From Hyphococcus sp. (GTDB taxonomy: Bacteria > Pseudomonadota > Alphaproteobacteria > Caulobacterales > Parvularculaceae), in contig JAJFGA010000043.1 in assembly GCA_021776375.1 (NCBI GenBank), positions 1 through 64,000 on the forward strand: a DNA stretch of 64,000 nucleotides, written 5' to 3'. The notes beneath the pieces were generated by a model. It ran no database searches, was not told the origin of the DNA, and was given only the letters and a program-made list of their open reading frames with translations. Positions 21,701 through 43,582 of this stretch are shown here, in pieces. Numbering within the stretch: position 1 is the first letter of the stretch; the number at the start of each line of letters is the position of its first letter. A program made the position numbers and the translations under genes.

Positions 21701-21840
21701 GCGACATTTTCCACGGTATGTAGCCGTCTAATAAAATTTTTAGCCTGATGTTTGTGACCTTCCTCTTGTGGCGCATGCAATCTGAATATGCTTTGTGTTA
21801 AGCTACATTGCAGATGCAATTAGATTGGGAGGTCATGACC

Positions 21841-22851
21841 ATGAGAGCTTTGGCGTTAATTGGCTTGGCGGCAGGCGTTATTGCGTCCGCTGCGACGGCG
21901 CAGGAAACCGTCGATATTCGCGAATGGGAAGTGCCGTTTGAGAATTCACGTCCGCGCGACCCGTTTGCTGAAAGTGCGAACTCGGTCTGGTTTGTTGGTC
22001 AACGCACGGGATACCTTGCTAATCTACAGGCGGATACTGGCGAGATTTCAAAATTTGATCTCAAACAAGGCTCCGGGCCGCACAATCTGATTGTCGGGTC
22101 CGACGGCATAGTCTGGTATGCCGGAAACAAGCATGGGCTTATCGGCCGATATGACCCAGAAACGGATACGGTCGAAGAAATTCCGATGCCTCGTTCAGCC
22201 GCCCGCGATCCGCACACTCTGGTTTTTGATGCGGGTGAGGAAAATATCTGGTTCACAGTCCAGGGCGGCAACATGGTTGGTCGGCTGAACATTGCTTCGC
22301 GCAAGGTTGACCTTATTGCCTCCAAAACTGAACGGTCGCGGCCTTATGGCATTAAGATGGCCGGCGACGGTTCTGTTTGGGTGGTTCTGTTCGGAACCAA
22401 TAAACTTGCACATATTGACGCTGAGACGCTTGCGCTAACCGAAATTGATTTGCCCCGGAAAGAGGCGCGGCCACGGCGGCTAGAAATTAGCGAGGAGGGC
22501 GCCGTTTGGTATGTTGATTACGCCAAAGGCATGCTTGGTAGATATAATCCCGAAACGGATAAATTTAAGGAATGGCCAATGCCGCAAGGCGAGAGCGCAC
22601 GTCCCTATGGCACGGCGATGGATAGCAAGGGCCGGATCTGGATCGCGGCGAGCGGCGTCAAACCCAATATATTTATGGGATTTAACCCAAAAGACGAGAA
22701 ATTCTTTGCTTTGACGCCAGTGCCGTCCGGCGGCGGTACGATCCGGCATATGCATTATCATGAGCCTTCGGGTGCGGTATGGTTTGGAACCGACACGAAT
22801 TATGTGGGGCGCGCTATTATAGAGCCTGTTAAGGCGGAGAGCGAAGGGTGA
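21841..22851 (+). CDS. Secreted Vgb-like beta-propeller protein
   Basis: 336 residues from ATG at 21841; GGGAGG 8 bp before this ATG makes it better than 21808 or 21835. The signal peptide MRALALIGLAAGVIASAATA is cleaved before QE. The mature part is a run of propeller blades with SxWF/VWYAG...IGRYDPET repeats, as in virginiamycin B lyase and SMP-30-like proteins. A His-rich stretch (IRHMHYHEPSG) is present. Actual streptogramin lyase activity is doubtful for a periplasmic protein. The next gene overlaps it by 4 bp and encodes a CxxCH protein, suggesting a joint extracytoplasmic function. Confidence 0.75.
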   Translation: MRALALIGLAAGVIASAATAQETVDIREWEVPFENSRPRDPFAESANSVWFVGQRTGYLANLQADTGEISKFDLKQGSGPHNLIVGSDGIVWYAGNKHGLIGRYDPETDTVEEIPMPRSAARDPHTLVFDAGEENIWFTVQGGNMVGRLNIASRKVDLIASKTERSRPYGIKMAGDGSVWVVLFGTNKLAHIDAETLALTEIDLPRKEARPRRLEISEEGAVWYVDYAKGMLGRYNPETDKFKEWPMPQGESARPYGTAMDSKGRIWIAASGVKPNIFMGFNPKDEKFFALTPVPSGGGTIRHMHYHEPSGAVWFGTDTNYVGRAIIEPVKAESEG

Positions 22852-27900: not shown

Positions 27901-27976
27901 GCTTTCTTCAGCACACGAGCAATTTTATCTAACTGGCTACAGTCGAAATTCGGTCGCGATAGCGCCGGCTTCCGGG
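27867..27976. repeat. Segmental duplication, copy 1 (boundary region)
   Basis: 110 bp covering the 3' end of the yqeY gene, the 28-bp gap and the 3' end of the LytTR gene are almost identical to 29841-29951. The similarity continues more weakly through the paralogous LytTR coding sequences. Confidence 0.9.
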
Positions 27977-28804
27977 AATAACCGAACCGTCGGCGAGGCT
28001 GATATCGACGCCGCCATCGCCAGTCGGTTTGATCCCGACAATATGATTGCGATTGACCAGATGCGAGCGGTGCACCCGAATATGCTCCTCGCCTGACTGC
28101 GCCAGTAAATTTTCGAGCGCGGTCATGGTCATGCGGGCGAGGAATGATTTGTCATGGGTGCGCACATCGACATAATTGCCGGCCGCTTGCGCTGTGATAA
28201 TTTCGGGAGCGCTGACAATGAAAGACACGCCGCCAGATTTTAACGTGATACGATGCGTGATGCGCGCCTGGCCGACGGCCGCTGCCGCCTCAAGCCGGCG
28301 TTGTTCCATGGCGCGAAAAGCAACGAACGTAAACATTAACACCGCATAGGTGAGGCCGTCCTTTTGCATTTCATATATGATGTGATGCGGCGCCAATAAA
28401 TTAACGTCGTAACTTCGCCCGACAAGCGGCGGAAACAGGATGAGGCGTAATGCATACATTATGTTCACGTGAAGCAAGGTGAACAGAGCGAACGCGCCGG
28501 CATGGATCGGTGCTGACCAGCGCCAGGCGAGCATCGATATTGGCGCCCGGTTGAGGGCAAGGGGAAACAATATCGACAGCGCGAATATAGTGGCATGGGA
28601 CGAGATTTCGAGCGTCCAGGTGTGACGCCACGAGATTTGAAGCCCAGCCTGGGCGATTTCGGTTCGCTGTGTTGCGATCTGCATGGTCACTGAGGCGGCG
28701 ATCATCAGGGCGATGAAGGCAAGTGCGCGCCGATCAGCGCGCCGGTCAGCGGCATGTTCTGGATTTGGGACGCGCCCTTGTTGCTCCACACCGCGGTTCA
28801 ACAC
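27929..28804 (-). CDS. Membrane-anchored LytTR transcriptional regulator (paralogue 1)
   Basis: 291 residues. Four hydrophobic segments (about residues 26-175) are followed by a C-terminal LytTR DNA-binding domain (SFIVSAPEIITAQAAGNYVDVRTHDKSFLARMTMTALENLL...VHRSHLVNRNHIVGIKPTGDGGVDISLADGSVIPGSRRYRDRI). There is no receiver domain, so the membrane part may sense the signal. It diverges from an outer-membrane protein gene, its likely target. The start is GTG at 28804, or TTG one codon later. Paralogue of the gene at 29903-30766. Confidence 0.85.
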   Translation of the reverse strand: MLNRGVEQQGRVPNPEHAADRRADRRALAFIALMIAASVTMQIATQRTEIAQAGLQISWRHTWTLEISSHATIFALSILFPLALNRAPISMLAWRWSAPIHAGAFALFTLLHVNIMYALRLILFPPLVGRSYDVNLLAPHHIIYEMQKDGLTYAVLMFTFVAFRAMEQRRLEAAAAVGQARITHRITLKSGGVSFIVSAPEIITAQAAGNYVDVRTHDKSFLARMTMTALENLLAQSGEEHIRVHRSHLVNRNHIVGIKPTGDGGVDISLADGSVIPGSRRYRDRISTVAS

Positions 28805-29878: not shown

Positions 29879-29951
29879 TCTTCCGCACACGAGCAATTTT
29901 ATCTAACTGGCTTCAGTCGAAATTCGGTCGCGATAGCGCCGGCTTCCGGGA
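29841..29951. repeat. Segmental duplication, copy 2 (boundary region)
   Basis: Matches 27867-27976 with only a few substitutions (for example CACTGCAATAG versus CGCTTCAATAG). Homology begins abruptly at CGCCGGGAAG. Confidence 0.9.
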
Positions 29952-30766
29952 ATGGTTTGGCCGTCGTTCATTGCAATTTTTACGTCGCCTTCGCCGGTCG
30001 GGCGGATTTCCTGAATATGATCGGTATTCACGATATATGACCGGTGGACGCGTACAGCGTTGACGCCGGCATCGGCGAGTTGCCTCTCTATGGCCGCAAG
30101 GGTTGCGCGCGCCAGATGCGTTTTGCCATTGGCGACGACTTCGACATAGTTTGACGCCGACTTCACCCAATGCACATCTTTAGCATCGACCCAGATTGAT
30201 CGTCCGCCGCATTTTAAGGTCAGTCTCTTTGACCGCTTTGCGTCTTCGCGCGCGGCGGCAATCTCCCTTCGTTGCTGCGCTAATTGTCTACCGAAGGTGA
30301 TGAAAAATACGAACAGCGCATAGGTCAGAACATCTTTTCGATATTCGTAAACCAGATCGCGCATTAGATGGTCGGAAAAGGTGTAAGAGGTCGAAAAAAA
30401 CAGCATGAATGCAAGTTTCCTGAACGCCACCATCAGCCCGACATGGATAAGCGAATAGATGATACTTGCGACCCCATGGACGCCGATAACGTATGACCAT
30501 TGATGTTGCCCCGGGGTTGCGCGGCTGGTGAGCCAAGCGACGGCCGGGAAGAGCGCAAATAATACGACAACGCTCGTTACCTCGTAGATCGCGAAATAAG
30601 TCGGTTCTGAGCCGCCGCCGTCGCGCCCGTATTCGGTGAGATTTGACAGAATATCGACCGCGAGGAAGGACGTCATGAACCCGGCCAGCCACAGGAAACT
30701 CAGACGGTCGGCGTCATCATCGTCCTGGTGTGGTGCGCGATTCGTTTTTGGGGAGGCTGTATTCAT
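29903..30766 (-). CDS. Membrane-anchored LytTR transcriptional regulator (paralogue 2)
   Basis: 287 residues with the same plan as the gene at 27929: four membrane segments (about residues 26-165), then LytTR (SIWVDAKDVHWVKSASNYVEVVANGKTHLARATLAAIERQL...VHRSYIVNTDHIQEIRPTGEGDVKIAMNDGQTIPGSRRYRDRI). The C-terminal 15 residues are nearly identical in both, the sensor part has diverged strongly. It is divergent from an acyltransferase gene, so each paralogue sits back to back with a different envelope gene. Confidence 0.85.
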   Translation of the reverse strand: MNTASPKTNRAPHQDDDDADRLSFLWLAGFMTSFLAVDILSNLTEYGRDGGGSEPTYFAIYEVTSVVVLFALFPAVAWLTSRATPGQHQWSYVIGVHGVASIIYSLIHVGLMVAFRKLAFMLFFSTSYTFSDHLMRDLVYEYRKDVLTYALFVFFITFGRQLAQQRREIAAAREDAKRSKRLTLKCGGRSIWVDAKDVHWVKSASNYVEVVANGKTHLARATLAAIERQLADAGVNAVRVHRSYIVNTDHIQEIRPTGEGDVKIAMNDGQTIPGSRRYRDRISTEAS

Positions 30767-35157: not shown

Positions 35158-37017
35158 TTAATCCGCCTGATTTTCGGCCTTCGCACGGCGTTTTCTCAAA
35201 TGCGGTTTTAACGCAATTTTCCGCAATCGGATGGATTTTGGCGTGACTTCGACCAACTCGTCATCGTCAATATAGGAAATAGCCTGTTCCAGCGTCAGTC
35301 GCTTTGGCGGGGTGAGGCGAACGGCCTCGTCCTTGCCGGCGGCGCGGATATTGGTGAGCTGCTTGGCTTTTAGGGGGTTAACATCAAGATCATTGGGCTT
35401 GGCGTTCTCGCCGACAATCATGCCTTCATAGACTTTGTCGCCGGGCGAAATAAACATCACGCCCCGTTCTTCCAGGTTCCAGATCGCGAACGGCACAGCT
35501 GCGCCGTCTCCATTGGAGATGAGGACGCCATTGCGCCGCCCTTCGATGGCGCCTTTATGGGGGGCATGTTCGAGATAGGAACGGTTCATGACGCCGGTGC
35601 CGCGCGTGTCGGTGAGGAAATCGCCATGATAGCCGATCAGCGAACGCGCCGGCGCATGCATGGTGAGGCGGGTCTTGCCGGCGCCTGCCGGCTTCATCTC
35701 CACCAGCTCGGCTTTGCGCTGCGAGAGTTTTTCGATGACAACGCCGGAATAGTCATCATCGACGTCAATCACCACTTCTTCAATCGGTTCCAGCAGCGTT
35801 CCATCATCGTCTGTGCGGGTAACGACGCGCGGGCGCGAGACGGCGACTTCAAAGTCTTCCCGGCGCATATTCTCAATCAGAACGCCAAGTTGTAATTCGC
35901 CGCGCCCGGCAACTTCAAAGGCGTCGCTGTCCGCGGTCTCGCTCACGGAAATTGCGACATCGCCTTCGGCCTGGCGCAACAGCCGCTCGCGGATGACGCG
36001 GGACTGCACCTTGGAGCCTTCACGTCCGGCAAGCGGTGAGTCATTGGCAGAGATTGTAACCGATAGCGTCGGCGGATCGATCGGCTGTGCAGGCAGGGCC
36101 TCGGTTACGGTGAGGTCACAAAGCGTGTCGGAGACCGAGGCTTGGGAAAATCCGGCAATTGCGACAATGTCGCCGGGCAGGGCTTCATCAACCGGCTGGC
36201 GTTTTAGCCCGCGAAAGGCGAGCACTTTTGTGACCCGCGCCTGTTCAATTTTTTTGCCGTCCCGCGACAGCGCTTTCATTGTAACGCCCGGCTTGGCGCG
36301 TCCGGAAACAACCCGTCCCGTGAGTAGACGACCAAGATAGGGATCGGCTTCCAACGTCGTCGCCAACATACGGAACGGCGCGTTGTCGCCGTCGGATTCG
36401 ACTGACGGCGCCGGTACATGGCGTACGACGATCTCAAACAAAGGCTGCAAATTCTCGCGCGCGTTATCCAGCGTTAGCGCCGCCCAGCCGTCGCGGCCTG
36501 CGGCGTAAAGCACGGGGAAGTCGAGCTGTTCGTCATTGGCGCCAAGGGCTGCAAACAGATCGAAGGTCGCATCAAGCGCCTTGTCCGGTTCCGCCGACGG
36601 TCGGTCGACTTTGTTGAGAACGACAATCGGCCGGAGGCCAAGCGCTAAGGCTTTTGATAATACGAATTTGGTTTGCGGCATCGGCCCTTCGGCGGCGTCA
36701 ATCAGGAGCAGGCAGCCATCGACCATCGACAGGATACGCTCGACTTCGCCGCCAAAGTCGGCGTGACCCGGCGTGTCGACGATGTTGATGCGCACCGGGG
36801 TATTATCCTTTTCCCAGAGGACGCTAGTGCACTTGGCGAGAATGGTGATCCCGCGTTCGCGTTCAATGTCATTGGAGTCCATGGCGCGCTCGGCCATTTC
36901 CGAGCCTTTGCGCACGGCGCCGGACTGGCGCAGCATCTCATCGACGAGCGTTGTCTTGCCATGATCCACATGAGCGATGATGGCGATATTGCGGAGCGAT
37001 ATTGTGCGTTGCGTCAT
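35158..37017 (-). CDS. typA: Translational GTPase TypA/BipA
   Basis: 619 residues. G1 [17 protein letters not shown] switch, DTPGHADF (G3), NKVD (G4); EF-G-like domains III and V follow, then the TypA-specific C-terminal domain ([41 protein letters not shown]...[28 protein letters not shown]). It helps 50S assembly and stress adaptation, especially in the cold. Length is normal. Divergent from the TIR-TPR gene. Confidence 0.96.
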
Positions 37018-37164: not shown

Positions 37165-39156
37165 ATGGCGCATCTGTTCATTAGCTATTCGCGGGCTGAT
37201 CGAGACGCGATTGAGAAGCTGGCCGCCACATTGGAGGCGGCGGGCCACTCGGTGTGGTGGGATCGCCATATTCGCGGCGGGGCGTCCTTCGCCAAGGATA
37301 TCGAGGCTCAACTTGTTAAAGCGGATGCCATCATCGTCGCCTGGTCGCCCGACGCCAACCAATCTGACTGGGTCAAAGACGAGGCTGTCTTCGCCCGTGA
37401 CAAGGGGATATTGATCCCGATCTGCCTGTCGCATTGCGAAGCGCCGCTGGGGTTTCGCCAATATCAAATGATCGACTTCCAGAAATGGAAGGGCGATCAG
37501 GCAGGGCCGGAGATGCGATCAGTTCTGAATGCGGTCGCCGAACTCACGGGCGGGTCTGCGCCCGCGCTTGAAGCCGCGACGCCGAAATCCCTGATTGCAA
37601 AACTCAAAACCGAGCCGGCATACATGGCAGGGGCTGCTGCGGCGTTGGCGCTTGCCGCGTTGATTTATGTATTCGTCATCCATCCCGCTTTCGAGCCTGA
37701 TGGGGAATTGACTGTTACTGAGGTGCTGGGCCCCCTGCCGGCGCCAGCAGAAATTTCAATCGCCGTCCTGCCTTTTGCCGACATGTCGCCGGAAGGCGAT
37801 CAGGAATATTTCGCAGACGGATTATCGGAAGAGCTCCTCAATGTGCTGGTGCATGTGGACGGGCTCAAGGTTGCCTCGCGCACCTCGGCCTTCGCCCTCA
37901 AAGGCGAAGCGCTCAGCGTGGGCGATATTGCCGAGCGCTTGCAAGTCAATCATGTCCTGGAGGGCAGTGTCCGTAAGATGGGCGCCACCGTTAAAATTAC
38001 GGCTCAGCTTATCGATGCCCGCGATGACCGGCATTTGTGGTCTGAAACCTATGACCGACAGTTATCGGACCTGTTTCGTATCCAGGAAGAAATAGCGACA
38101 GCCGTTGTCGTTGAGTTGCGCAACCAGCTTGGCATGAAGGAAAGCGCGCCGGTCCATATCAAAACCGCCACCCACAATATGAGCGCCTATGACACCTATT
38201 TAAAAGCACGCGAATTATTCGCCGCGCGCGGCAAAGCCAATGTGAAAGAAAGCCTGCGCTTGTTTGAACAAGCCGTTGATATGGACCCGAGCTTTGCGAA
38301 AGGGTGGGAAGGACTTGCCGCCGTTTATGGTGTTGCGACGAGCTATAGCATTATGGATCGCGATTACTCCGCGCTGGCGCTTGCCGCCAACAAAAAAGCG
38401 CTTGAGCTGGATCCGGACCTATCGATGCCCTACGCCGTCATTGGTTTGACGTATCGGGGGCATTACCCGACGCCTTGGGCTGAATCTTTCGACAATCTGA
38501 ATAAGGCGGTGGAGCGCGATCCTAAAAATGTCAGCGCCTGGCAGTGGCTCGGCATGAACTATATCGCCGTCGGCGCGCGGGAAGACGCCATAAGCGCTTT
38601 TCGGACTTGCCTTGAGCTGGATGAGGCGAGGCAGTTGTGCCGACGCTACCATTCTGTAGTCAATATTATGCTCGGTAATATCGACGAAGCCATGAAGGAT
38701 GCCAGCATGAATGCGGAGGCCAACTATTTTGGCGGCTTTGACGCTTACCTCCCTGTTCTTCTCGAGCGCGACGAGCGCATGATGGCGTTTGCGGCGTCGC
38801 GAATGATTAACTGGCGGGCAGGCTTTCCGCATAAAGAATATATAAGCGCGCTGGAGAGCCCGGCGGACCAGCCGCCAGATCAGCTAGAAATTTTTACGGC
38901 CTGGGGTGCGGATGCGAAAGTTAATGTGGCTCGTAAAACCAATGTCATGCTGGCCTTGCGGGCGTATGACAAGATCAACGTTGGTACATTTGGCAATGAT
39001 TATCCGGATTTGTGGCTGCCGCAGTTCGCCCACTATCGTCGCTCGCCGCAGTTTAAGCAGTTGGCGGAAGATCTCGGTTTAACAGACTATTGGCGCACGC
39101 ACGGGTTTCCGCCGCAGTGCCACGCTGTTTCAGAGACTGACTTTGAGTGCAGCTAA
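37165..39156 (+). CDS. TIR-TM-TolB-like/TPR membrane protein
   Basis: 663 residues. TIR_2 domain (residues 1-115): MAHLFISYSRADRDAIEKL, VWWDRHIRGG, and SDWVKDEA with E73 at the place of the TIR NADase glutamate. One membrane helix (about 152-173), with lysines before it and acids after, predicts N-in/C-out. A TolB/FlgO-like module (SIAVLPFADMSPEGDQEYFADGLSEELLNVLVHV...) follows to about residue 320, then TPR-like repeats to about 560. TIR domains in bacteria commonly cleave NAD or signal through cyclic ADP-ribose-type products; here that is inference. Convergent with the TIR-WD40 gene; the stops overlap. Confidence 0.8.
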   Translation: MAHLFISYSRADRDAIEKLAATLEAAGHSVWWDRHIRGGASFAKDIEAQLVKADAIIVAWSPDANQSDWVKDEAVFARDKGILIPICLSHCEAPLGFRQYQMIDFQKWKGDQAGPEMRSVLNAVAELTGGSAPALEAATPKSLIAKLKTEPAYMAGAAAALALAALIYVFVIHPAFEPDGELTVTEVLGPLPAPAEISIAVLPFADMSPEGDQEYFADGLSEELLNVLVHVDGLKVASRTSAFALKGEALSVGDIAERLQVNHVLEGSVRKMGATVKITAQLIDARDDRHLWSETYDRQLSDLFRIQEEIATAVVVELRNQLGMKESAPVHIKTATHNMSAYDTYLKARELFAARGKANVKESLRLFEQAVDMDPSFAKGWEGLAAVYGVATSYSIMDRDYSALALAANKKALELDPDLSMPYAVIGLTYRGHYPTPWAESFDNLNKAVERDPKNVSAWQWLGMNYIAVGAREDAISAFRTCLELDEARQLCRRYHSVVNIMLGNIDEAMKDASMNAEANYFGGFDAYLPVLLERDERMMAFAASRMINWRAGFPHKEYISALESPADQPPDQLEIFTAWGADAKVNVARKTNVMLALRAYDKINVGTFGNDYPDLWLPQFAHYRRSPQFKQLAEDLGLTDYWRTHGFPPQCHAVSETDFECS

Positions 39157-41324
39157 CCGGCTTTGCGTGTCCGTCGGCTGAAGTTGCGCAAGATTGTCGC
39201 CCGCCAAATCCACCGCAACAGGGCAAATATCGTCGCCGGCACAAAGGCCAGTGTCAGCCACAGGGCGAGGGCCTCAGCCGGTAGCGCTGAAGCGATCAAC
39301 AAACCAACATAGGCGGAGACGGCAAACAGCACTGTCACCACGACCAGGCGGGCGGGCGCATGGGCTTTGACTACCCACAATATGCCTTTGACGATGAGCG
39401 CCGCCAGCAACAAAGCGGCGGCGATTAAAACGCCCTTGCCCAGGAGATTGCCCGCCTCTCTCGGGTGTTTTTTGAAATCAACCGGGACAGGCGCTTGCGA
39501 GGAGACAAACACCGGCGGCGTGTCGATCGCCATGGGCAGATCAATCGCTGATTTGATATGACCCATGGTGACCAGTTCCTCGCCGGTCACCCCATCCCAT
39601 ATGCGCGCGGTGTTATCACGCGAGCCACTGACGATGATTTTCCCGTCGCTGGAGGAATCCAAGGCGCGAGTGGCGTCGCGATGGCCTTCAAGCTCAGCGA
39701 TCAGCGTCTGGTCGGCGATGTTCCATAAGCGGATGACCGGGTCGATGCCGCTGGTCGCCAGAGTCTTGTCGTTATTGGCGAATGCGACGCCGAAGGCTTT
39801 GGCGGCGCCGTGATTAAATGTAGCCAGACGCTGCCGGCCCTCGGTGCGCCAGATGCGAATGCGGCCATTGTCGGCGGCTGCGGCGAACATCGATCCATCA
39901 TTGGAAAAGGCCACATCGTTGCCTTCGCCGCCAATGGAAAGCGTTGAAATGCGCCCTCCGCTGCGCCAATTCCACAAGCGGACATTGCCGTCTCTGGAAG
40001 CGGAGACGAGCTTTTCTCCGTCGGGGCTGAAGTCAATCGCCGCGACGCGGTCCGTGTGTCCGGTCAACGTTCGCACCACTTCACCGGTGTCAGGGTCCCA
40101 GATAATGATCGTATTGTCATTGCTGGACGTTGCGATGGCCGAACCGTCAGGCGACCAGGCCGCGTCGCGAACACTGGAGCTGTGGCCTTTAAGCTGGCGA
40201 ATGAGCTTGGCGTTCGATGTCGACCAGATGTCGGCGCTTAGGTCGCGCGAGGCGGAGACCGCGAGTTTTCCGTCTGGCGAAAAGTCTGCATCCCAGACCC
40301 AGTTTTCGTGTTGTTTAAATTCCGCCAGCTCAACCCCGGTGGTCGCGTCCCACAGTTTTACCGTGGAATCATCGGACGAGGTGAGGAGGCGCTTGCCCGC
40401 GGTGTCGAGGGTGACGCCGTTAATGTCGGCCCCTTCGATGCCTTTGACCTGAACACCTTCGAGCGCTGCGGCGTAGATCCGGCCCTCAAGGATGAGCGGG
40501 GCGCTGGCGATCAGGGAGAACAGGATCAGCGCCATATAAGAGCGCGGCAAGAGCGCAAGCGAGGCGGCGCCGGCGGCGCGGTCGGCCTCCAATGTTCCGT
40601 AGCGGGATAAAAACGCCAGAATGCCCATGGCGCCAACGAAAAACGGCCGGTAGGCGGCGAAAACAAAATCTGACGTATAAGCGAGCGCGCCGAAGGCGGC
40701 GGCGATCAGCGCGGCCATAAAGATTGCCTGCGCAAACAACGCCAGACGACGTTTGGAGCCGGTAGTCGTATAAGCGCTTTTTTGCGCCCTGGGTTGTTTG
40801 GCGCGTTTGGGCGGTTTTGGTTTCTTTTGTTTTTTGGGCCGCTCCTTGGCAGTCGGCTCTGGGGTTGATGGTTCTGGTGCTGCGGGCGCAGGCGCCGGTT
40901 GCGGCCGGCGATCGGGCGCGCCACGTGCGTTCGCGGCGCCGTCGCTGACGGCGCCGATAAAGGCTTTGAACGCGTTGTCGTTGAGATTGCCGCGCCAATG
41001 CGTCAGGTCGGCGGTTTGGATCTGCCGAAAGCCGAGCGGGATATCGACATTGTCGATCAGGGCAGGGAACAAGATGTCGCGCGCCGCACCTTCGTCGGCT
41101 TCATCGGCGACGAAGCGCGAGGCCACCGAATAGCGTGACCACATGACAATGACCGACCGCGTCGAGTTGAGCGCTTCGCCAATTTCCTGACGGAACCCGG
41201 CGCCGGTTTTGATTTCCGGATCCCACCACACGCGCAATCCGCGCTGCGAGAGCGCGTGGGCGATTTTCTCTACCTTCGGGCGATCCTCGCGCGAATAGGA
41301 AATAAATACGTCATGGTTCGCCAA
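39153..41324 (-). CDS. TIR-TM-WD40-TM membrane protein
   Basis: 723 residues from TTG at 41324, with GAGGGG 7 bp upstream; the 40 extra residues in the ORF track are not TIR-like. TIR_2 domain (1-120): HDVFISYSREDRPKVEKIAHAL, VWWDPEIKTG, FVADEADEG with E75. A very basic Pro/Lys linker (about 150-185), then three helices, seven WD40 repeats (KLWD, DIWS, IIWD, RLWN, RIWR, RLWN, RIWD), then three more helices and a basic C-terminus. Charge distribution places the TIR domain inside and the propeller outside. The mechanism is inference. Confidence 0.8.
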   Translation of the reverse strand: MANHDVFISYSREDRPKVEKIAHALSQRGLRVWWDPEIKTGAGFRQEIGEALNSTRSVIVMWSRYSVASRFVADEADEGAARDILFPALIDNVDIPLGFRQIQTADLTHWRGNLNDNAFKAFIGAVSDGAANARGAPDRRPQPAPAPAAPEPSTPEPTAKERPKKQKKPKPPKRAKQPRAQKSAYTTTGSKRRLALFAQAIFMAALIAAAFGALAYTSDFVFAAYRPFFVGAMGILAFLSRYGTLEADRAAGAASLALLPRSYMALILFSLIASAPLILEGRIYAAALEGVQVKGIEGADINGVTLDTAGKRLLTSSDDSTVKLWDATTGVELAEFKQHENWVWDADFSPDGKLAVSASRDLSADIWSTSNAKLIRQLKGHSSSVRDAAWSPDGSAIATSSNDNTIIIWDPDTGEVVRTLTGHTDRVAAIDFSPDGEKLVSASRDGNVRLWNWRSGGRISTLSIGGEGNDVAFSNDGSMFAAAADNGRIRIWRTEGRQRLATFNHGAAKAFGVAFANNDKTLATSGIDPVIRLWNIADQTLIAELEGHRDATRALDSSSDGKIIVSGSRDNTARIWDGVTGEELVTMGHIKSAIDLPMAIDTPPVFVSSQAPVPVDFKKHPREAGNLLGKGVLIAAALLLAALIVKGILWVVKAHAPARLVVVTVLFAVSAYVGLLIASALPAEALALWLTLAFVPATIFALLRWIWRATILRNFSRRTRKAG

Positions 41325-41599
41325 AGCGCCGCCCCTCTCGTGCTCTGTCTTCTTGCCCGCAATCTCACCCTCAGAAGATGCGGTTTTCTCCCCCGCTCCC
41401 CCTGCTGACCTGTGAAAACTAGCAAAAACGTCGCATCGGGACAATCGCCTGATTTGTCAGATATTTGACTGGGGATAAATTTCTTTGGGCGCCGGCTTCA
41501 AAATCTGGATTTATTGTCGTTCTGGCCTGCAAACCCCCTTTGAGCTTCCGCCTTTGCGGCATATTGAAGGGCTTATTATTTTGGAGGCCTCTGCGCCAG

Positions 41600-43582
41600 A
41601 TGGCTCGCTTCACACCAGACTTTCTAGATGAGCTAAAGGCCCGGCTGCGGCCTTCAGATGTCATCGGGCGTTATGTGAAGCTAAAGAAGCAAGGCAATGA
41701 ATGGGCTGGACTTTCTCCATTTACGAAAGAAAAAACGCCGTCCTTTTTCGTCAATGATCAAAAGGGTTTCTACCACTGTTTTTCGTCCGGAAAGCATGGC
41801 GACGTCATCTCGTTTTTGCAGGAAACCCAGCGGCTGACATTTCATGAGGCGGTCGAACAGCTTGCGGAAGAGGCGGGTTTACCGTTGCCGGCGGAAACCC
41901 CCGGGGACGCCGCCAGGGCTCAGCGGGCGCAAGGTCTGGCGGAAGCCTGCGCCGGCGCTGCGCAATATTTCGCCGCGATGTTGCAGCGCAGTGACGGCCG
42001 TCAGGCGATGGACTATTTGCGCGGACGCGAGGTCAGCGACGAGCAGATCAAACAATTCAATATTGGCTACGCGCCGTCAGGGCGCGGCGGGCTCAAGGAT
42101 TTTTTGATCAATAAAAGTTTTGCGGAAGATGTTCTGATTGAGGCCGGGTTGATCATCAAACCGGAAGACGGCTCGGCGAGTTTTGATCGTTTCCGTAATC
42201 GGATCATGTTTCCAATTACCGGCGCGCGCGACCGGGTGATCGCATTTGGCGGCCGCGCCCTCGACCCGGAGGCGCGTGCAAAATATCTCAACTCGCCGGC
42301 GACGCCGCTGTTTCACAAGGGCTCGGTGCTTTATAATTTCAACGCTGCACGCATGGCGGCGGCGGACGCCAAGGCGCCGCTGATGGTTTGCGAAGGCTAT
42401 ATGGATGTCATCGCGCTGTGGGGGGCGGGGTTTAAGCATGGCGTTGCGCCGCTGGGCACAGCGCTTACGGAAGATCAGCTCACGTTGTTATGGCGCGCAT
42501 CGGACGAGCCGGTTTTGTGCTTTGACGGCGACAAGGCTGGCGTCGCCGCAGCGCATCGCGCAATTGATCGCGCCCTGCCGTTGATTAAACCCGGCAAGTC
42601 TCTGTCTTTCGCCTTTTTGCCAGAAGGTCAGGATCCGGACGATGTCGTCCGGTCCGAGGGCGCGGCGGCGTTTGGCAAAATTTTGAACGAGACCCAGCCG
42701 CTGGTTGATGTGTTGTGGGACCGGGAAATTCAGGCGCGCCCGCTCGACACGCCTGAACGCCGCGCTGCGCTGAAGGCGCATTTGCGCGAGCTGGTTAAGA
42801 CCATTGTCGACAACGATGTGCGCGGCGCCTACGGGACAGAGTTTGCGCGCCGGCTTGATGAGCGCTTCGCGCCGCCGTCGCGCGCAGGCGGGCAGCGTTC
42901 CGGCGGTGGATGGCGGGGAGGCAAAGGTGCGGGCGGGCAGGGGGGAGCCCGCAACTGGGGTGCGAATCAGCGCGGCCAGGGCTTCCGTTTTGCCGAACCC
43001 GCACGCCCGAGCCCCGGCCTAAAGCGCCGCGGCGCGCCCTCGCAATGGAGCCGTGAGGCGGCGCTGATCCTCGCGGCGATCAACCATCCGGCGCTGATAG
43101 AACGCCAGGAAACGGCGTTTTTTGACCTCGAACTTGCCGATCCGGGCTTAAAAGGTCTTCTAAGCGAGGTTTTATCGGCAATTTCGTTGGATACCGGCCT
43201 TGACAGCGCCGGGCTGAGGAGCCATCTCAGCGGAACCGGCGCGGCAGGTTCTATGGAGCGGGTTTTGAATGACCCTGAGCTCTCGAAACACCGATTCCTC
43301 CGCCCCGACACTGGGATTGACGAAGCAGAGCAAGGATTTAGAAATGCTCTGGCCCTTCACCTGTTTGATTCCACCCTCAAACAGGAGGTTGTGCGTTCGG
43401 CGTCTCAGATATTCACAGATGGCGACGAGAGCTGGAAAGCGGCCGCCGCGGCGCGAGAAGAATTGGTCAATACGAATAAAGCTAGCGAACAAAATGTGCT
43501 GGACAATGGCGATTCGCCCAAGCGCTTTGATGACGCGCTGGAGCGCATGAAACAAAGCGTTGATAAAAAGTTCAACCGGTAA
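41600..43582 (+). CDS. dnaG: DNA primase DnaG
   Basis: 660 residues from ATG at 41600 ([23 protein letters not shown]); TTGGAGG lies 12 bp upstream and the ORF track's 45 extra residues are rejected. The CHC2 zinc-ribbon region is present but most ligands are replaced (see findings). The TOPRIM core shows [12 protein letters not shown] and [11 protein letters not shown] Gly/Arg-rich linker (about 430-470) leads to the helicase-binding C-terminal domain. It makes RNA primers and binds DnaB. It leads directly into rpoD after 15 bp. Confidence 0.95.

Follow-up and report, generated by a model that had tools for sequence, protein, structure and literature searches.

The stretch of Hyphococcus sp. 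DNA analysed here (the window, 64,000 nucleotides of contig JAJFGA010000043.1) carries two convergent genes, here called A and B, each of which encodes an N-terminal TIR domain, one or more membrane helices and a predicted periplasmic sensor domain. In our proposal A and B serve as separate receptors in the inner membrane and would pass envelope signals inward through their TIR domains, and we give the whole chain, in which an envelope signal acts via TIR enzymes that cleave nicotinamide adenine dinucleotide (NAD; such enzymes are NADases) on a SLOG-type membrane protein, a probability of roughly 0.5. The architecture is real and well supported: the topology and active-site readings of a first-pass annotation made from the sequence stand, while its readings of the two genes as a unit and as an unusual defence design do not. 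Because relatives of B adjoin predicted nucleotide-gated membrane proteins, the data suggest a Toll-receptor-like route from the envelope to the cytoplasm.

Architecture, active site and topology of A and B

The features of the two genes are as follows.

37165..39156, plus strand: gene A, protein of 663 residues with TIR domain, one membrane helix and CadC-type sensor
37177..37500, plus strand: A TIR_2 domain, residues 5-112, predicted cytoplasmic (Pfam E=9e-25)
37381..37383, plus strand: A Glu73, catalytic position, in a WxxxE motif (W69)
37624..37680, plus strand: A single membrane helix, residues 154-172, basic on the TIR side and acidic on the other
37744..38169, plus strand: A TolB/CadC-like alpha/beta subdomain, about residues 194-335, predicted periplasmic
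38170..39153, plus strand: A TPR and C-terminal subdomain, about residues 336-663
39153..39156: overlapping stop codons (A TAA at 39154-39156, B TAG at 39155-39153)
39153..41324, minus strand: gene B, protein of 723 residues with TIR domain, three helices, WD40 propeller and three helices; TTG start
39210..39464, minus strand: B transmembrane helices TM4-TM6, about residues 621-705, C-terminus predicted inside
39561..40433, minus strand: B seven-blade WD40 propeller, about residues 298-588, predicted periplasmic
40482..40745, minus strand: B transmembrane helices TM1-TM3, about residues 194-281
40986..41309, minus strand: B TIR_2 domain, residues 6-113, predicted cytoplasmic (Pfam E=7e-22)
41100..41102, minus strand: B Glu75, catalytic position (FVADE)

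Both reading frames were found where the annotation had placed two TIR_2 genes meeting tail to tail with overlapping stops. The stretch shared by the two stop codons is 2 nucleotides (39154-39155), and the TTG start of B is also the point where orthologous reading frames begin. The overlap is not kept in relatives, where the gap between A and B runs from 2 nucleotides to 3.9 kb, and this variability rules out a conserved stop overlap as a feature of the locus.

Profile searches for TIR and WD40 domains returned TIR_2 in both proteins (88 bits for A and 79 bits for B, with a cut-off of 28 bits), along with TPR repeats for A and, for B, six WD40 units. The residues that had been assigned to the catalytic site of TIR NADases, E73 (A) and E75 (B), align with the Glu found at that site in bacterial TIRs of known structure (PdTIR, 3h16, and AbTIR), and this Glu was invariant in 15 A sequences and 18 B sequences, including homologs at 40-50% identity. 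A and B thus have the family match and the Glu that mark TIR-domain NADases, and NAD+ cleavage is predicted for both. Alternatively, the TIRs could be non-enzymatic adaptors that recruit other TIR proteins to the membrane, for example a conserved TIR-FGE protein of the same genome in which the catalytic Glu is replaced by Gln (contig C90, see below). Since there is such a protein and genomes of the genus hold many TIR paralogs, mixed TIR complexes are possible; the invariance of the Glu in every A and B sequence examined argues the other way, and we regard a purely adaptor role as distinctly unlikely.

The description of A as a TIR domain followed by a single helix and a TolB-like/TPR module was borne out by Pfam, by hydropathy and by an AlphaFold model (mean predicted local distance difference test score 75), which places the helix at 152-171, albeit with low confidence there. 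Compared with the PDB, this model came closest to the four structures of the periplasmic part of CadC (3ly7-3lya; E about 1e-7, with TM-scores of 0.60-0.64 to the target), and an NCBIfam CadC-like match covered residues 194-407 (E=1.2e-6, under that family's cut-off). A therefore pairs a single helix with a predicted periplasmic CadC-fold sensor, as CadC/ToxR-like regulators do, and has TIR_2 in the place of their N-terminal winged-helix DNA-binding domain. The outer module of A is common in proteins of the same family and order, where it follows a TIR domain, a short membrane-anchored N-terminus (ELRRRNVFRVA type) or a Trans_reg_C winged-helix domain. Because the same outer module is fused to such varied N-termini, A is best seen as a putative CadC-type sensor in which a TIR output replaces the DNA-binding domain. 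CadC itself, an acid-sensing ToxR-like one-component regulator of Escherichia coli, resembles A in its one helix, in its two-part periplasmic sensor (alpha/beta plus helical repeat) and in having periplasmic cysteines, which in CadC form a disulfide used in sensing (PMC3096576). It differs from A in its winged-helix domain and in the placing of its cysteines: the four invariant cysteines of A (C482, C492, C652 and C662), all past the helix, lie in the C-terminal part and not at the CadC positions. In viral contigs the A-type outer module was fused to nucleotide cyclases and not to TIR, the one exception to cyclase fusion being a NACHT-FGE protein; viral TIR copies were set aside as a candidate.

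For B, hydropathy and an AlphaFold model (mean score 77), which matches seven-blade WD40 propellers, agreed with the annotated order of TIR domain, three helices, seven-blade propeller and three helices. Six helices, three on either side of the propeller, were seen by hydropathy in nearly all orthologs. TM1-TM3 of B are 98-100% identical among the four closest orthologs and the single helix of A varies freely, a pattern in keeping with a simple anchor in A and a functional helix bundle in B.

The annotation had placed the TIR domain inside and the repeat domain outside in both proteins. Consistent with this, hydropathy and charge analysis of all A orthologs found 2-5 Lys/Arg on the TIR side of the helix and mostly acids on the opposite side; in B the inner loops and the C-terminus are basic, the exception to the charge pattern being a stretch right before TM4 with four basic residues. 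Outer cysteines come in even numbers in 33 of 36 proteins with A's CadC-type module, and in 18 homologs of B the propeller has 0 or 2 cysteines, never 1, with 0, 1 or 2 in the inner parts; these counts come from related sequences and are not independent, although paralogs show several different even patterns. Charge bias and paired cysteines, together with the CadC fold in A, thus lend good support to the inferred topology for both proteins, and an outer sensor is very probable in A and nearly as probable in B. The opposite arrangement, with the repeat domains as scaffolds in the cytoplasm and helices that serve merely as anchors, would suit the cytoplasmic location of TPR and WD40 domains in most proteins; set against the charge pattern, the paired outer cysteines and the homology to the CadC periplasmic domain, we consider it highly improbable.

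Inheritance and selection of the two genes

Named relatives that carry B orthologs place the organism in a Marinicaulis-like group of Parvularculaceae, and we compared 27 genomes of this kind (the genus set). In the genus, A and B sit between two fixed neighbours:

35158..37017, minus strand: typA (bipA), left neighbour of the A/B insert
41465..43582, plus strand: dnaG, right neighbour of the A/B insert

Both genes are present in 14 of the 27 genomes and both are absent from 10 (Fisher p=8e-5), in which typA and dnaG directly adjoin. A is absent and B kept in two genomes (G009 and G019), B is absent and A kept in one (G013), and in three (G024, G014 and G021) 0.7-3.9 kb of other genes lie between them. 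In G021 the intervening genes encode a pentapeptide-repeat membrane protein and an AraC-family regulator (L049:8855-12693). On the evidence of the typA tree, A and B appear to have been present in the ancestor of the genus and to have been lost several times.

These results bear on whether A and B work together as a single two-protein receptor, as their adjacency in 14 genomes and joint absence from 10 might indicate. The genes are physically linked, however, so that a single deletion removes both; each has also been lost without the other, which rules out an obligate two-gene receptor, other genes can intervene, and B homologs elsewhere occur without A and with SLOG/RyR partners instead. A joint receptor is therefore very unlikely. 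The adjacency expected by the annotation is real, but the functional unit is not upheld: single losses and intervening genes mark it as mostly inherited synteny, and the A/B pair is a vertically inherited insert rather than an obligate unit.

The TIR, CadC-like, TPR and WD40 parts are under purifying selection, with ratios of nonsynonymous to synonymous substitution (dN/dS) of about 0.03-0.2; values well under 1 in all folded domains rule out a diversifying sensor. No defence genes, mobile elements or defence-island signature were found around A and B, an NCBIfam and PADLOC search for a known defence system gave only partial, TIR-only matches, and a fixed typA-dnaG site inherited vertically with losses was found in place of patchy horizontal spread in defence islands or mobile elements. 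The core-gene locus, vertical inheritance and purifying selection count against the annotated possibility of a defence design. They also count against an explanation in which A and B are membrane-anchored abortive-infection proteins, whose outer domains sense phage adsorption or envelope damage and whose TIRs deplete NAD+ without a messenger. Similar TIR NADases act in this way in SpbK and Thoeris (PMC12847820, PMC11204291), and PADLOC TIR models do match the TIR parts; with the matches confined to those parts and no defence genes or mobile elements nearby, we hold this explanation to be unlikely.

Nor is the layout unusual in this lineage, as had been claimed. Genomes of the genus hold 0-19 TIR_2 genes each (three in the genome studied here), many TIR-membrane-sensor paralogs are present, and the sensor module of A is widely paired with TIR and with other N-termini. 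In one relative at least five TIR-TolB/TPR genes stand in tandem (L062; G017:C222:10000-29000); their cysteine patterns differ, and one of them lacks a clear membrane helix. TIR-membrane proteins of the same layout with a different cysteine-bearing outer part occur in Hyphomonadaceae-type metagenome-assembled genomes (L082, L083 and L084).

Elsewhere in the window, two LytTR-type DNA-binding membrane proteins are encoded on the same strand (27929-28804 and 29903-30766), the second adjoining an acyltransferase-like membrane gene, and 21808-22851 encodes an exported propeller protein that by eye resembles the streptogramin-lyase-type (Vgb-like) fold.

SLOG, RyR and DUF4231 genes near TIR genes

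Homologs of B at 48-50% identity were found in four other Parvularculaceae-type genomes, those of Parvularcula lutaonensis and P. mediterranea and two metagenome-assembled ones. In all four (L077, L078, L079 and L080) the gene next to B encodes a large membrane protein, and in these other genera A is not a neighbour. Three of the partners (L077, L079 and L080) consist of a transmembrane region, TrkA_N-type Rossmann domains and a RyR domain (RyR E=6e-11, 8e-11 and 6e-8; TrkA_N match over cut-off in one), and two of the three end in a SLOG-like stretch. A profile built from this set matched RyR structures from animals and bacteria (E as low as 2e-29) as well as TrkA. The fourth partner (L078) has a SLOG-like N-terminus and DUF4231 (SLATT-like). 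In a further genome (G029), a related SLOG/RyR membrane protein is overlapped by a TIR-FGE protein that retains the Glu.

The genome studied here has a SLOG-DUF4231 gene outside the window (C90:50186-52060), followed by a third TIR gene, of TIR-membrane-FGE type, with Gln at the catalytic Glu position. The two adjoin in 11 of 11 genus loci compared (our own and ten others), with Gln in the three that were read out. This genus-conserved locus (L128:6187-10262, C90:50186-54261), whose TIR-like gene is of membrane-FGE-sulfatase type, lies just upstream of dnaK.

Across the order, a TIR gene lies within two genes at 8 of 12 independent SLOG/RyR membrane loci (L077, L078, L079, L080, L129, the genus locus, L164 and L168, but not L133, L165, L166 or L167), for which we estimate a chance proximity of roughly 1% of genes (3-19 TIR genes in about 3,000). 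At L164:3822-9976, in the order-level relative G054, TIR-membrane-TolB and SLOG-DUF4231 genes flank a gene for a predicted secreted trypsin-like protease.

Several observations weigh against the proposed chain. In the window's genus the SLOG gene is not adjacent to A or B, so that a TIR gene beside a SLOG/SLATT/RyR membrane gene is found for B in L077-L080 and not at the window locus. RyR genes are uncommon in the class, with 6 of 385 genomes carrying one. A class-wide survey of RyR-TIR adjacency again yielded only the L077 locus: at the remaining five loci the neighbours are SLOG, patatin or unrelated genes, with TIR_2 absent, and outside the order RyR/TrkA genes lie beside SLOG or patatin genes instead of TIR genes. 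The TIR-RyR link thus characterises this group. Within the genus, B and SLOG tend to be present or absent together (13 genomes with both, 8 with neither, 3 and 3 with one; Fisher p=0.015), and seven related species have none of A, B and SLOG. With only two phylogenetically independent pairs, however, this co-occurrence is weak and fails as an independent test of linkage. The SLOG assignment is based on a motif (GVTGHR ... GGTA) and a weak YAcAr match and not on structure, a PDB profile search returning no match for SLOG. Finally, WD40 domains elsewhere are mostly cytoplasmic.

At L209 (G128) and L207 (G252), TrkA/RyR membrane genes group with SLOG-like genes in clusters that contain no TIR gene; the L209 cluster also has a patatin-like phospholipase gene.

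A proposed signalling route across the envelope

What can be read from the sequences is the domain make-up, the conserved Glu, the exchange of sensor modules and the gene neighbourhoods of relatives. Building on these, we hypothesize that a periplasmic ligand or envelope state would alter the oligomeric state of A or B, that the cytoplasmic TIRs would then assemble and cleave NAD+, that an ADP-ribose-type product might act on a SLOG-type membrane protein (here the SLOG-DUF4231 protein of C90), and that the response of this protein may alter membrane permeability. For the window genes, the last two steps, messenger and SLOG/RyR/DUF4231 effector, would act in trans. The more specific version, in which a cytoplasmic TIR, driven by an outer sensor of the CadC, WD40 or FGE type, makes an NAD-derived messenger that gates a RyR/RCK/SLOG membrane channel, we put forward as doubtful but conceivable. 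The SLOG domains of ThsA bind 3' cyclic ADP-ribose (3'cADPR; PMC11204291), RyR-domain proteins from phages bind 2'/3'cADPR and cleave it (PMC13232231, preprint), and YpsA-like SLOG and SLATT proteins are predicted sensors of ADP-ribose or ADP-ribose-gated membrane effectors (PMC9503650, PMC7159879).

Thoeris (ThsB TIR plus ThsA) is similar in that a TIR NADase-type protein is coupled, in relatives, to a SLOG-type effector gene. In contrast to Thoeris, the TIR protein here is membrane-anchored with an outer sensor, and the partner in relatives is TM-TrkA_N-RyR(-SLOG) or SLOG-DUF4231 (TM, transmembrane region), not SIR2-SLOG or TM-macro; no ThsA effector was found beside A and B, whose window neighbours are typA and dnaG. 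The TIR/SLOG/SLATT network of NAD and ADP-ribose signalling described by Aravind and co-workers likewise places TIR genes beside SLOG and DUF4231/SLATT-like membrane proteins, whereas trans-envelope TIR receptors with CadC, WD40 or FGE outer domains do not figure in the pertinent passages of those papers (PMC9503650, PMC7159879). Animal Toll-like receptors share the outward sensor, membrane helix and inward TIR by analogy only: the sensor domains are unrelated, the TIR is N-terminal here (the reverse order), and they signal through adaptors, as opposed to the enzymatic signalling predicted here.

If true, the proposal would describe a bacterial receptor that is laid out like a Toll receptor and works through a RyR-domain membrane protein gated in a cADPR-like manner. 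Bacterial TIR proteins studied to date mostly sense intracellular trouble; a TIR NADase whose CadC or WD40 sensor faces the periplasm would tie envelope sensing to NAD-derived signalling. It would also offer a case for what bacterial RyR/SLOG membrane proteins answer to, as their neighbours in Parvularculaceae are predicted TIR receptors.

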